A DNA stretch of 64,000 bases. Origin: Alphaproteobacteria bacterium. GTDB taxonomy: Bacteria > Pseudomonadota > Alphaproteobacteria > Micropepsales > Micropepsaceae. The notes beneath the pieces are model-generated. The model had not been told where the DNA came from. It ran no database searches and was given only the letters and a program-made list of their open reading frames with translations. The DNA lies in NCBI GenBank assembly GCA_016124385.1, contig WGNU01000006.1, forward strand, positions 372,001-436,000, written 5' to 3'. This document shows, piece after piece, positions 15,423-20,323 of this stretch; position 1 is the stretch's first letter; every line of letters begins with the position of its first letter. The position numbers and the translations under genes were made by a program.

Positions 15423-16616
15423 ATGGCCAGCCCGAAAGACCCGATCCGCCCTGCCCTGCGCGCCCTCGCCCGCAACGGGATCGGCGAAGTGGCGCGCCTC
15501 GGCCTTGGCCAGAGCGATGTCATCCCCCTCTGGTTCGGCGAGAGCGACCGCGTGACGCCCGCCTTCATTCGCGACGCCGCCAAGCGGGCACTCGATGAAG
15601 GCCGCACGTTCTACACTTTCGCCAACGGCATTCCCGAGTTGCGCCGGGCGATCGTCGATTTCCACCACCGGTATCAGGGCGTCGCGCTCTCGCCCGAGCG
15701 GATCTCGGTTCCAGGGGCGGCGATGCTGGGCGTTCGGATCGCACTTCAGTGCCTGATTGAAACCGGAGACAACGTTGTCGTCGTCGCGCCGATCTGGCCC
15801 AACATCTTCGAGGCGGTGCGCGCCTCCGGCGGCGAGCCGCGCCTCGTCATGCTGGAGCCGGAGGACGCGGGCGCAGGATGGCGGCTCGACCTTCAGGCGA
15901 TCGCCCGGGCCTGCGATGACCGCACGAAGGCGATTTTCGTCGCCTCGCCCGGCAATCCGACCGGCTGGGTGATGAGCCGGAGCGAACAGGAAGCGCTGCT
16001 CGCCATCGCCCGTGCGGAGGGGATCGCCATCATCGCCGACGAAGTCTACGGCACGCTCGTCTATGAGGGCCGCGCCGCGCCGAGCTTTGCCGCGCTCGCC
16101 GGGCCAAACGAGCCCGTCTTCATCATCCAGTCCTTTTCCAAGGCCTGGGCGATGACCGGCTGGCGGCTCGGCTGGCTGATCGGGCCGGAGGACCTTTATC
16201 CCAAGATCGCTCAGCTCATCGCCGTCAACAACACGGGCGCGACAACCTTCGCGCAATGGGGCGGCCTCGCCGCGATCACCGAAGGCGATGATTTCATCGC
16301 CGAGATGGTCGCGTGCTGCCGCGAGGGGCGCGACGTCGTCGATGAATTCGTGCGCGGCCACAACGCCATTACCTGGGCGCGGCCGGAAGGCGCCTTCTAC
16401 GGCTTCCTCGCGATCGAGGGCCTGACCGACAGTCTCTCCTTCGCCAAGGCCCTGCTCGCCGAGACGCGCGTCGGCGTCGCGCCGGGCATGGCGTTCGGCG
16501 TGCCGGGCGATCCCGAGATCGAGCGGCATATCCGGATCTGCTTCGCACAAGACAAGACGCGTCTCCAGGAAGCGCTTGACCGGCTCGGCCGGTTCGTTGA
16601 GGAGGGGCGGCGCTAA
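15423..16616 (+). CDS. PLP-dependent class I/II aminotransferase
   Basis: 397 residues of fold type I, aspartate-aminotransferase family. The PLP lysine is Lys240 in SFSKAWAMTGWRLGW; Asn178 (SPGNPTGW), Asp206 (ADEVYG) and the substrate-carboxylate Arg near the C-terminus are also present. The substrate cannot be named; similar proteins are annotated as aspartate or aromatic aminotransferases. The ATG at 15423 begins the conserved domain. It is transcribed away from rpsB and ends convergently with dnaE, overlapping by four bases. Confidence 0.9.
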   Translation: MASPKDPIRPALRALARNGIGEVARLGLGQSDVIPLWFGESDRVTPAFIRDAAKRALDEGRTFYTFANGIPELRRAIVDFHHRYQGVALSPERISVPGAAMLGVRIALQCLIETGDNVVVVAPIWPNIFEAVRASGGEPRLVMLEPEDAGAGWRLDLQAIARACDDRTKAIFVASPGNPTGWVMSRSEQEALLAIARAEGIAIIADEVYGTLVYEGRAAPSFAALAGPNEPVFIIQSFSKAWAMTGWRLGWLIGPEDLYPKIAQLIAVNNTGATTFAQWGGLAAITEGDDFIAEMVACCREGRDVVDEFVRGHNAITWARPEGAFYGFLAIEGLTDSLSFAKALLAETRVGVAPGMAFGVPGDPEIERHIRICFAQDKTRLQEALDRLGRFVEEGRR

Positions 16617-19600
16617 ATCTCCTGCGCCTCGAGCACGCCGGGGAGTGCGCGCACGGCCCCCGTCAGCTGCGGCGTGACCGTGAAGCGGCCGGGCAGTTCC
16701 AACTCGACCTCGCGGCCGTCCTCGAGCTGAAGGACGAGATTGACGATGCCGCGCCCGGGCCGGTTGACGAGGCGCTGCAGCGGGGTCAGGGGCGCCGCAT
16801 CGTTGACGAAGACGCGAAGGCCCGCGCCCGTCTCGGCCACCACGTCATCGAGGCTCTTGACCGTCTGTACCCGGAGCTTCAGCTCATCGCCCTGCCATTC
16901 CGCGAACGCGCCGAGGACGACCGAGGCGCCGGGCTCCAGCTTGTCTCGCGCAGCGAGCAGAGTTTCGGAAAAGACAATCACCTCGAAGACACCGCTCGGA
17001 TCGGAGAGCGTCACGAACGCGTAGGGCGTTTCCTTCTCGCGCGATTTGCGTTCCTGGCGGGCGATGACGGTGCCCGCGAGCGTTGCGAACCGCGCCTCGC
17101 GCGCCGCACTCGTCTGAAGGGCCGCAATCGAGACGACGCCCGCGCGGCGCAGCGCCTGGGCCGAGGTATCGAGCGGATGGCCGGAGAGATAGAACCCAAT
17201 CGCTTCGAATTCCTTCTGCAATTGCTCGGCCTCCGTCCAGGGTTCGGCGGCCCGGAGCGGTGGATCATCGAGTGCGGCCGCCTCTGCGCCAAAGAGGCTC
17301 GCCTGGCCGGCCTCGCGGGTGCGCTGCGACTCATTCGCGTGCGAGAGGATCACCTCGACGTTCGCGAACACTTGCGCGCGGTCGCGCAAGAGCGCCGAGA
17401 GGGCGCCCGCGGCCGCGAGGCTTTCGAGCGCGCGCTTGTTGACGTGGCGCGGATCGATCCGCCGCGCGAAATCCCACACCGAGAGGAACGGCCCGCCACG
17501 CTCACGTTCGGCGACGACGTGATCCATCGCCTGACGGCCGACATTGCGGATGGCGGCGAGCCCATAGCGGATGGCGCGCGTGCCATCCTCATCGCTCTCG
17601 ACCGTGAAGGTTGGCGATGAGCGATTGATGCAGGGCGGGCGCACCGCGATCCCCAAGCGGCTCGCCTCCTCGCGGAAAACATTGAGCCGGTCGGTCGCGC
17701 CGATATCGAGCGTCATCGAGGCGGCGATGAATTCGGCCGGGAAATTCGCCTTCAGATAGGCCGTCTGATAGGCGACCTGCGCATAGGCGGCGGCGTGGCC
17801 CTTGTTGAAACCGTAGCCTGCGAATTTCTCGGCCTGCTCGAAGATCTCGATCGCCGCGCCTTCGGGAATGCCGCGCTCCTTCGCGCGTTTGACGAAGGTC
17901 TCGCGGTTCTGCGCCATCGCGCCCTTGTCCTTCTTGCCCATCGCGCGGCGCAGATTGTCGGCCTCGCCCATCGAATAGCCGGCGAGCTCACGGGCGATCA
18001 ACATGACGTCCTCCTGGTACGTCATGACGCCATAGGTTTCCTCGAGGATCGGCTTCAGCGCGGGGTGGATGTAGTCCGGCTCCTCCTCACCGTGCTTGCA
18101 GGCGATGTATTTGGGGATCGACTGCATCGGGCCCGGGCGGTAGAGCGCGACGAGGGCGATCAGATCCTCGATCCGGTCGGGCTTGAGCTTGCGGATGAGA
18201 TCGCGCATGCCCGTGCTTTCCAGCTGGAACACGCCCACGGAATCGCCACGCGAGAGCATCTCGTAGGTGGCCGGATCATCGAAGGCGACGTCTTCCGTCT
18301 TCACCGCGATGCCGCGCCGGGCGAGCAATTCCTCTGTCCGCGCGATCACCGTCAGCGTTTTCAATCCCAGAAAATCGAACTTCACGAGGCCGACCGCCTC
18401 GTTGTCCTTCCAATCGAATTGGGTGACGGGCATTTCGGATTTCGGATCGCGGTAGAGCGGGACCAGTTCATCGAGCGGGCGGTCGCCGATCACGATGCCA
18501 GCGGCATGCGTCGAGGCGTGGCGGTAGAGCCCCTCGATCTTCTCAACGATCGAGAAGAGCCGTGCGACCTCTTCCTCGCGCTCGGCCATCTCGCGCAGGC
18601 GCGGCTCGCCTGCGATCGCCTCTTTCAGGGTCACCTGCTGACCGGGGACATTGGGAATGAGCTTCGAAATCCGGTCGACCTGGCCGTAAGGCATCTGCAG
18701 CACGCGGCCGACATCGCGCACGGCCGCGCGCGGCTGCAGCGTTCCATAAGTGATGATCTGGGCGACGCGGTCGGCGCCATAGCGCTCCTGTACATAGCGG
18801 ATGACCTCACCGCGCCGGTCCTGGCAGAAATCGATGTCGAAATCCGGCATCGAGCGGCGTTCGGGATTGAGGAAGCGCTCGAAGACCAAACGGAAGCGCA
18901 AGGGATCGAGCGCGGTGATCTCCAGCGCCCAGGCGACGATCGAGGTTGCGCCCGAGCCGCGCACGCCGACCGGAATGCCTTGCGCACGCGTCCATTTCAT
19001 GAAGTCGGAAACGATGAGGAAATAGCCCTCGAAACCGACGGTCACGATCACGTCGAGTTCGTAGTCGAGGCGCTTCCAATAATCTTCCTCGGGCACGAAC
19101 GCGCCCGCGCGCTCCAGGCGGTGCTTCAGTCCTTCGCGGGCCTGCGCGCGCAATTCATCGCCGGCCGTGCGGCCCTCGGGCAGCGCGAATTGGGGGAGGA
19201 TCGGCGCGCGGCGGCGCGGGACATAGGCGCAGCGCCGCGCGATCTCGAGCGTGTTCGCCACCGCCTCGGGCAGGTCGTCAAAGAGCGCGGTCATTTCCTG
19301 CGCGCTCTTGAAGGAGTGATCGCGCGTGACGCGCCGGCGCTCGGTCTCGGAGACCGCCGTTCCGGCCGCGATGCATAGAAGCGCGTCATGCGCCTCATAC
19401 ATCGCGGGCTCGCCGAAATAGGGCTCGTTGGTCGCGACGAGCGGCAAATCCATCTCGTAGGCGAGATCGAGGAGACCCGTTTCGGCGGAAACTTCCTCGG
19501 GCGTGCCGTGGCGCTGCAGCTCGACATAGAGGCGGCCCGGGAAGATCGCGGCGAGCTTCGACGCGAGCGCCTTGGCGGCCGGCTTCTGGCCCGCGACCAA

Positions 19601-20050
19601 GGCCGCGTTCAGCGGTCCCATCGGGCCGCCGGTCAGGCAAAGAAGGCCCTCGCTCAGAGCGGCAAGATCTTCAAAGCACACGTGGGGGGCTTCGTGCGCC
19701 GCCGTGCCCAGATAGGCGCGGCTGACGAGCTTTGAGAGATTGCGCCAGCCCGTTTCGTTCTGGACGAGAAGGGCGAGCGAGGGCCAAGGGGGCATGCCCG
19801 GGAGGCTCCGCACCGGGCTTGCGCGATCGCTGCCCGGATCGAGCGCGAGCGTGCAGCCCATGATGGGCTGGATGCCGGCATTGCCGAGCGTCTCGGCGAT
19901 TTCGACCGCGCCGAAGAGATTGTTCGTATCGGTGACGGCGACCGCGGGCATCGCATAGTCGCGGCAGCGCTTGGCCAGTTCCTTGACGCGGATCGCGCCT
20001 TCCAGGAGCGAATAGGCGCTATGGACGCGCAAATGCACGAACTCCGCCAT
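16613..20050 (-). CDS. dnaE: DNA polymerase III alpha subunit (replicative, DnaE1 type)
   Basis: 1145 residues. It is the replicative polymerase. The N-terminal PHP domain begins MAEFVHLRVHSAYSLLEGAI; the polymerase palm carries PDFDIDFCQDRRG with the catalytic aspartates; helix-hairpin-helix, OB (residues about 980-1060) and C-terminal tau-binding parts follow. Length and sequence fit DnaE1 rather than the mutasome polymerase DnaE2/ImuC. The start at 20050 is preceded by a GGAAGGA ribosome binding site. A tiny SOS-type gene ends 103 bases upstream on the same strand with no clear terminator between, so part of dnaE transcription may come from that promoter. Confidence 0.95.
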   Translation of the reverse strand: MAEFVHLRVHSAYSLLEGAIRVKELAKRCRDYAMPAVAVTDTNNLFGAVEIAETLGNAGIQPIMGCTLALDPGSDRASPVRSLPGMPPWPSLALLVQNETGWRNLSKLVSRAYLGTAAHEAPHVCFEDLAALSEGLLCLTGGPMGPLNAALVAGQKPAAKALASKLAAIFPGRLYVELQRHGTPEEVSAETGLLDLAYEMDLPLVATNEPYFGEPAMYEAHDALLCIAAGTAVSETERRRVTRDHSFKSAQEMTALFDDLPEAVANTLEIARRCAYVPRRRAPILPQFALPEGRTAGDELRAQAREGLKHRLERAGAFVPEEDYWKRLDYELDVIVTVGFEGYFLIVSDFMKWTRAQGIPVGVRGSGATSIVAWALEITALDPLRFRLVFERFLNPERRSMPDFDIDFCQDRRGEVIRYVQERYGADRVAQIITYGTLQPRAAVRDVGRVLQMPYGQVDRISKLIPNVPGQQVTLKEAIAGEPRLREMAEREEEVARLFSIVEKIEGLYRHASTHAAGIVIGDRPLDELVPLYRDPKSEMPVTQFDWKDNEAVGLVKFDFLGLKTLTVIARTEELLARRGIAVKTEDVAFDDPATYEMLSRGDSVGVFQLESTGMRDLIRKLKPDRIEDLIALVALYRPGPMQSIPKYIACKHGEEEPDYIHPALKPILEETYGVMTYQEDVMLIARELAGYSMGEADNLRRAMGKKDKGAMAQNRETFVKRAKERGIPEGAAIEIFEQAEKFAGYGFNKGHAAAYAQVAYQTAYLKANFPAEFIAASMTLDIGATDRLNVFREEASRLGIAVRPPCINRSSPTFTVESDEDGTRAIRYGLAAIRNVGRQAMDHVVAERERGGPFLSVWDFARRIDPRHVNKRALESLAAAGALSALLRDRAQVFANVEVILSHANESQRTREAGQASLFGAEAAALDDPPLRAAEPWTEAEQLQKEFEAIGFYLSGHPLDTSAQALRRAGVVSIAALQTSAAREARFATLAGTVIARQERKSREKETPYAFVTLSDPSGVFEVIVFSETLLAARDKLEPGASVVLGAFAEWQGDELKLRVQTVKSLDDVVAETGAGLRVFVNDAAPLTPLQRLVNRPGRGIVNLVLQLEDGREVELELPGRFTVTPQLTGAVRALPGVLEAQEI

Positions 20051-20153
20051 CGCCCTTCCTTCCCGCGATTCGCCGCCCAAACCCGGCCCCAGTATCGGCG
20101 AGGGAGGCGGTCCATCGAACCGGCCCGACGCCGTCATCCACAGAAATCTTGCC

Positions 20154-20267
20154 TCAGGTGAAGGCCGCTTCGGCGAGCGTGATCCAGCCGAGCGTTCCGG
20201 CGACGAACGCCACGAAGCCAAGCATGGCCGCCAAATCGCCGCCCCATTCGTTCATCGCCTGCCGCAT
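20154..20267 (-). CDS. 37-residue single-pass membrane microprotein behind LexA-type boxes
   Basis: The 37 residues begin MRQAMNEWGGDLAAM and contain one hydrophobic segment (about residues 12-31, DLAAMLGFVAFVAGTLGWIT). The ATG has an excellent GGAGG site five to six bases upstream. The promoter upstream has a consensus TTGACA and two overlapping LexA-type boxes. Seen: small frame, ribosome binding site, boxes. Known: in Caulobacter the SOS-induced 29-residue membrane protein SidA blocks division through FtsW/FtsN, and in E. coli LexA controls the 29-residue membrane toxin TisB. Inferred: this gene encodes an SOS-induced membrane peptide of that type. No sequence match to SidA is claimed. Confidence 0.7.
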   Translation of the reverse strand: MRQAMNEWGGDLAAMLGFVAFVAGTLGWITLAEAAFT

Positions 20268-20279
20268 CGTCGCCTCCTC

Positions 20280-20323
20280 GTTCCTGGTATGTTCTATGTT
20301 GTTGTTTTGTTCTCGTCTGTCAA
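20280..20323 (-). promoter_or_regulatory. SOS promoter with two LexA-type boxes
   Basis: Read on the plus strand, GTTC-CTGGTAT-GTTC (20280-20294) is a perfect GTTC-N7-GTTC box, the LexA operator of Alphaproteobacteria. Three bases further, GTTG-TTGTTTT-GTTC (20298-20312) matches seven of eight positions. On the minus strand a perfect TTGACA (20318-20323) lies 17 bases from AACATA (20295-20300), so the boxes cover the -10 and spacer, as expected for repression. The start of transcription would be about 20 bases before the microprotein ATG at 20267. Confidence 0.75.

Follow-up and report, generated by a model that had tools for sequence, protein, structure and literature searches.

A LexA-boxed membrane microprotein gene upstream of dnaE is a probable alphaproteobacterial sidA ortholog

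Division inhibitors of the SOS response are commonly described as specific to individual lineages. SidA of Caulobacter, a 29-amino-acid inner-membrane protein, is the primary SOS division inhibitor and acts on FtsW (PMC4211646); an AlphaFold 3 study positions it, at low confidence, against helix 7 of FtsW (PMC13396833). The sidA gene carries the locus tag CCNA_02004 (PMC10769358), and dnaE of Caulobacter is CC1926 (PMC1839093). The recN gene, CC1983 in the one tag series, is CCNA_02062 in the other (PMC12700426), which gives an offset of 79 between the two series, and therefore sidA and dnaE adjoin each other. Our literature search found no paper that names the locus tags of sidA and dnaE together. 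In the older Caulobacter tags, sidA is presumably CC1927, and early regulon predictions reportedly listed LexA boxes ahead of dnaE.

In the window (the whole 64-kb stretch of DNA that was analysed, from a genome that is 74% complete), dnaE is preceded on the same strand by a gene for a microprotein of 37 amino acids (MRQAMNEWGGDLAAMLGFVAFVAGTLGWITLAEAAFT; 33 when counted from the second methionine), and the dnaE ATG (position 20050, minus strand) is located 103 bp past the microprotein stop codon (Table 1). Translation may start at M1 or at M5. The highest hydropathy over 17 residues is 1.91, with values of up to 2.4 in relatives, and the microprotein is predicted to have one transmembrane helix in a chain of about 30 residues, as in SidA. 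The N-terminus typical of the family is M-x-W-x-K-D-A-A-A-G. Few copies in the family diverge from it as far as those of the window (WGGDLAA) and of a relative in the same genus (WIEEIMAA), and the topology of the window protein is less clear because the lysine of the usual W-x-K-D is absent from its N-terminus. Scans of five family members against Pfam and NCBIfam gave no match above the curated cut-offs. When the 37 residues were used as a single-sequence query against the window's family, one relative (of the same genus) was recovered at E < 0.01 and the other matches were weak; seven of these hits proved to be located at dnaE.

Table 1. Features of the microprotein–dnaE region, in window coordinates.
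Feature	Position	Strand	Evidence or remark
Microprotein gene, 37 codons; predicted single-pass membrane protein, probable sidA ortholog	20154..20267	minus	Frame kept in 61/79 family loci, pN/pS 0.39–0.53
Ribosome-binding region, GAGGAGG ahead of the microprotein ATG	20268..20279	minus	Read from sequence
LexA box 1, perfect, GTTCCTGGTATGTTC (GAACATACCAGGAAC on the gene's strand)	20280..20294	minus	12 nt from the annotated ATG; position kept in the family
LexA box 2, one mismatch, GTTGTTGTTTTGTTC (GAACAAAACAACAAC on the gene's strand)	20298..20312	minus	Perfect-plus-variant pair also present at lexA in this genome
TTGACA, likely -35 of the SOS promoter; LexA boxes follow just downstream	20318..20323	minus	TTGAC recurs in relatives
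DnaA-box-like element TGTGGATGA just past the microprotein stop	20134..20142	minus	Present in 52/60 family loci
CGATACT past the DnaA-like element, candidate -10 of a promoter for dnaE alone	20091..20097	minus	Spacing kept in the family
dnaE, DNA polymerase III alpha subunit	16613..20050	minus	ATG 103 bp past the microprotein stop

Conservation was assessed in a sample of 79 dnaE-upstream regions collected from the window's family. The results revealed that (i) the microprotein was recovered by profile in 61 of the 79 regions, the perfect GAAC-N7-GAAC box was present in 59 (compared with 1 reversed-pattern control site in the same regions), and both occurred together in 56; (ii) a membrane ORF started within 100 nt of the box in 58 of the 59 boxed regions, whereas for random positions in regions without a box the figure was 18 of 100, some of these regions holding a displaced microprotein; (iii) the start codon was most often 29 nt from the box; and (iv) pN/pS of the microprotein was 0.39 for close pairs and 0.49 and 0.53 for more distant ones, the pairs not being mutually independent. 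The microprotein profile was built from 12 of the same genomes, and E-values for those 12 are therefore not independent; the box test and the codon test are independent of the profile. Three boxed regions (L294, L333, and L334) fell below the profile threshold, yet a membrane ORF was present in each on inspection. In more than ten family members, the microprotein near dnaE is missing. On this comparative evidence, the microprotein is a real gene under selection, because its frame, boxes, and pN/pS are conserved across the family. The preliminary description had proposed a 37-codon gene directly upstream of dnaE, encoding one membrane segment and equipped with a strong GGAGG site and a pair of LexA-type boxes, and had named conservation in relatives among its checks; all of these elements were confirmed at the positions given, and this check was borne out by the counts above.

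The 2 LexA-type boxes of the window are spaced 18 bp apart. The TTGACA element is located 56 nt before the microprotein ATG, and a TTGAC at about -53 to -59 recurs in relatives; in a strict scan, no sigma-70 promoter passed. The perfect box pattern has 3 matches in the window against 1.5 expected, and 48 matches genome-wide against 49 for the reversed-pattern control, with no enrichment in the genome. Because these frequencies are at chance in both window and genome, a single motif match is uninformative by itself, and the evidence for the boxes being real is therefore their conservation rather than their occurrence. In the same genome, the lexA promoter carries a perfect GTTC-N7-GTTC box together with a GTTG-type variant (GTTGCAGTTTTGTTC), and one-mismatch boxes are located upstream of recA. 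The lexA gene (L001, G000:C8:366212) is located on the same contig, about 26 kb from the microprotein gene, near the dnaE cluster. In addition, a perfect AT-rich box (GAACAAAGAAAGAAC) at position 1501 of L377 (G000:C6:419555) is situated ~100 bp upstream of a glycosyltransferase-like ORF (MLSIVIPTLNAERHLPRTL); this pair is possibly a further SOS gene, or chance.

A 29-residue Caulobacter ORF upstream of dnaE served as the query for a scan of named genomes; a Caulobacter CtrA sequence was used only to locate Caulobacteraceae genomes, an assignment that the named loci then confirmed. In Caulobacter vibrioides DSM 9893, a 29-amino-acid SidA-type gene is followed by dnaE 51 bp past its stop codon and has a LexA box (GAACATCTTGTGAAC) 64 bp before its ATG. 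This ORF is equated with the published sidA on the grounds of its length, position, box, and locus tags rather than of the published sequence. Among 80 named Caulobacteraceae loci, dnaE is directly downstream on the same strand in all 79 that are readable (C. vibrioides L185 and 78 others), and in L239 the sequence stops ~45 bp past the SidA-type gene, with dnaE beyond reach. A LexA box with at most 1 mismatch was present at 79 of the 80 loci, the contig of the 80th beginning 24 bp before the gene.

The same arrangement occurs elsewhere in the class. In other families, the perfect box was present in 19 of 119 dnaE-upstream regions (reversed-pattern control, 1 site), and a membrane ORF was found within 100 nt of the box in 18 of these 19 regions; the nineteenth (L048) also has a membrane ORF under a looser rule. 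A boxed membrane microprotein upstream of dnaE was found in ten further families, and the microprotein gene is missing near dnaE in many families of the class. These counts suggest a wider range for SidA than in the literature that we found. An iterated profile seeded with Caulobacteraceae SidA alone (inclusion threshold E 0.1) recruited 12 ORFs from 132 loci, 32 of them boxed; all 12 were at boxed loci and nothing else was recruited, and members of the window's family came next in the ranking, with E near 1–10. In hhalign comparisons, the window's family aligned with the intermediate families at 96% (score 37.6; shuffled-helix control maximum 26.6) and the intermediates with SidA at 90%; the direct comparison of the window's family with Caulobacter SidA gave 2% (score 11.6), which is within the controls and not significant. 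The intermediates were picked by position and box, and the hhalign figures thus support rather than prove descent. Because the profile links combine with a shared locus and promoter, the best reading is that the window family and SidA are orthologous. The earlier view of the gene as possibly new and without an obvious match to SidA is not supported, since in C. vibrioides the SidA-type gene, preceded by a LexA box, occupies the corresponding position and the two families are connected through chains of profiles.

We conclude that the gene is, with good confidence, the local sidA ortholog, encoding a putative LexA-controlled, single-helix SOS division inhibitor that would act as Caulobacter SidA does. 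The genome encodes LexA, RecA, and two FtsW/RodA proteins. Because the boxes are present and LexA and RecA are encoded in the genome, repression by LexA and its RecA-triggered relief can be proposed. In the undamaged cell, LexA would occupy both boxes over the promoter and keep the microprotein gene off. RecA on single-stranded DNA would lead to LexA cleavage, the promoter would fire, and a 33–37-residue single-helix inner-membrane protein would then accumulate. By analogy with Caulobacter SidA, its target is probably FtsW (and FtsN), which it would bind in the assembled divisome; septal wall synthesis would be kept in an inactive state, and division would be delayed until the DNA is repaired. 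In this scheme, binding by LexA, induction, insertion into the membrane, the target, and the block to division are all inferred. A role as an SOS division inhibitor, one of those raised in the preliminary description, is supported by the evidence from position, promoter, and family.

The sequence has diverged to the point where profiles no longer connect it directly with Caulobacter SidA, which would also suit a protein that is SidA-family by descent and has changed its target, for example to another wall-synthesis protein instead of FtsW. We consider such a change unlikely, as the position, size, box, and helix are retained and proteins of the FtsW/RodA family are present. A TisB-like SOS toxin, which would depolarise the membrane and promote dormancy, is very improbable. 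The size, single hydrophobic helix, and SOS-type control of the window protein fit what is known of that family, as does the hydropathy of up to 2.4 in relatives, but the locus is the same as that of Caulobacter SidA. Moreover, tisB is accompanied by an antisense antitoxin RNA and has a long, regulated leader, for which little room is left in the window gene: the likely -35 element is ~56 nt upstream of the ATG, and the box-to-start spacing is short.

The relation of the promoter to dnaE could be examined in six family members in which the microprotein is displaced from dnaE (L302/L339, L304/L340, L310/L341, L331/L342, L268/L343, and L321/L347). One extra co-directional ORF of ~135–185 residues lies between the 2 genes in L302, L304, L310, L331, and L268, and two such inserted ORFs are visible at least in part in L321/L347. 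The perfect box remains ahead of the microprotein in all 6 cases. That the box stays with the microprotein when other ORFs separate it from dnaE argues for the microprotein as the gene that the box serves; any SOS control of dnaE would be no more than a by-product. On the gene's strand, no terminator was found between the microprotein and dnaE, as had been noted before, and read-through from the SOS promoter into dnaE is possible.

TGTGGAT or TGTGGAC directly follows the microprotein stop codon in 52 of 60 family loci, compared with 0.043 sites per 100 bp upstream, and CGATA lies 42–46 bp from TGTGGA in 37 of the 60 (44–45 bp in 31). The DnaA box TTATCCACA has ATCCACA as its core. Across the class, TGTGGAT/ATCCACA occurs at 1.30 per kb within 250 bp upstream of dnaE, a count that takes in members of the window's family, versus 0.19 further upstream (~sevenfold). 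Where one inserted ORF separates the displaced microprotein from dnaE, the DnaA-like element stays at the microprotein stop, ahead of the inserted ORF and dnaE, as would be expected of a promoter for an operon of the two. A separate promoter is suggested because the DnaA-box-like element and the GATACT element keep a fixed spacing; dnaE thus probably has its own promoter past the microprotein stop, and the DnaA-box-like element suggests control of this promoter by DnaA. The earlier proposal that the SOS promoter raises dnaE is not supported, given that the box follows the microprotein and conserved elements suggest a separate promoter. A structured RNA or attenuator between the genes was rejected, as the intergenic RNA folds no better than shuffles (z +1.44, window sequence). 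A leader peptide or upstream ORF serving SOS control of dnaE might account for the 103-bp distance and the lack of a terminator on that strand, but it has little to recommend it: the amino-acid sequence of the microprotein is under selection, the box keeps to the microprotein where an additional ORF intervenes before dnaE, a separate conserved element lies between the genes, and the RNA shows no excess of folding. A chance ORF with chance boxes, for which the chance frequency of the raw box pattern in the genome would speak, is already refuted by the conservation of frame, boxes, and spacing in dozens of genomes and retains virtually no probability.

Beyond the identity of the gene, we put forward, as a tentative idea that may well prove wrong, that the sidA-dnaE locus represents a checkpoint module ancestral to the alphaproteobacteria, in which a fast-evolving SOS division inhibitor has long been kept beside the gene of the replicative polymerase; one promoter would respond to damage through LexA, and the next, that of dnaE, to replication initiation through DnaA. 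If this were true, SidA would be an old checkpoint protein broadly shared in alphaproteobacteria, which annotation misses because SidA has ~30 residues and is too divergent for sequence search and which place and a LexA box can find. Dozens of natural variants would then be available for studies of how one helix can halt FtsW, and a LexA box ahead of dnaE should be credited to dnaE itself only with caution.

Among the known systems, TisB of Escherichia coli, the toxin of a toxin–antitoxin pair, resembles the window protein as a small SOS-controlled membrane peptide but has no locus relation to it. YneA, SosA, and ChiZ, of Gram-positive and mycobacterial species, are likewise DNA-damage-induced membrane division inhibitors and have been modelled as FtsW binders (PMC13396833); they belong to other phyla, have no locus relation, and are longer, with extra domains (LysM in YneA and ChiZ). 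DidA of Caulobacter crescentus is also a small single-helix division inhibitor induced by DNA damage, but it has 71 amino acids, is induced by DriD independently of SOS, and binds FtsN (PMC4211646). SidA (CCNA_02004) differs in its length of 29 residues compared with 37 here and in sharing little residue identity, the sequence link running only through intermediate families. By contrast, its gene, like that of the window, is located directly upstream of dnaE on the same strand with a LexA box over the promoter, and encodes a protein of ~30 residues with one membrane helix.
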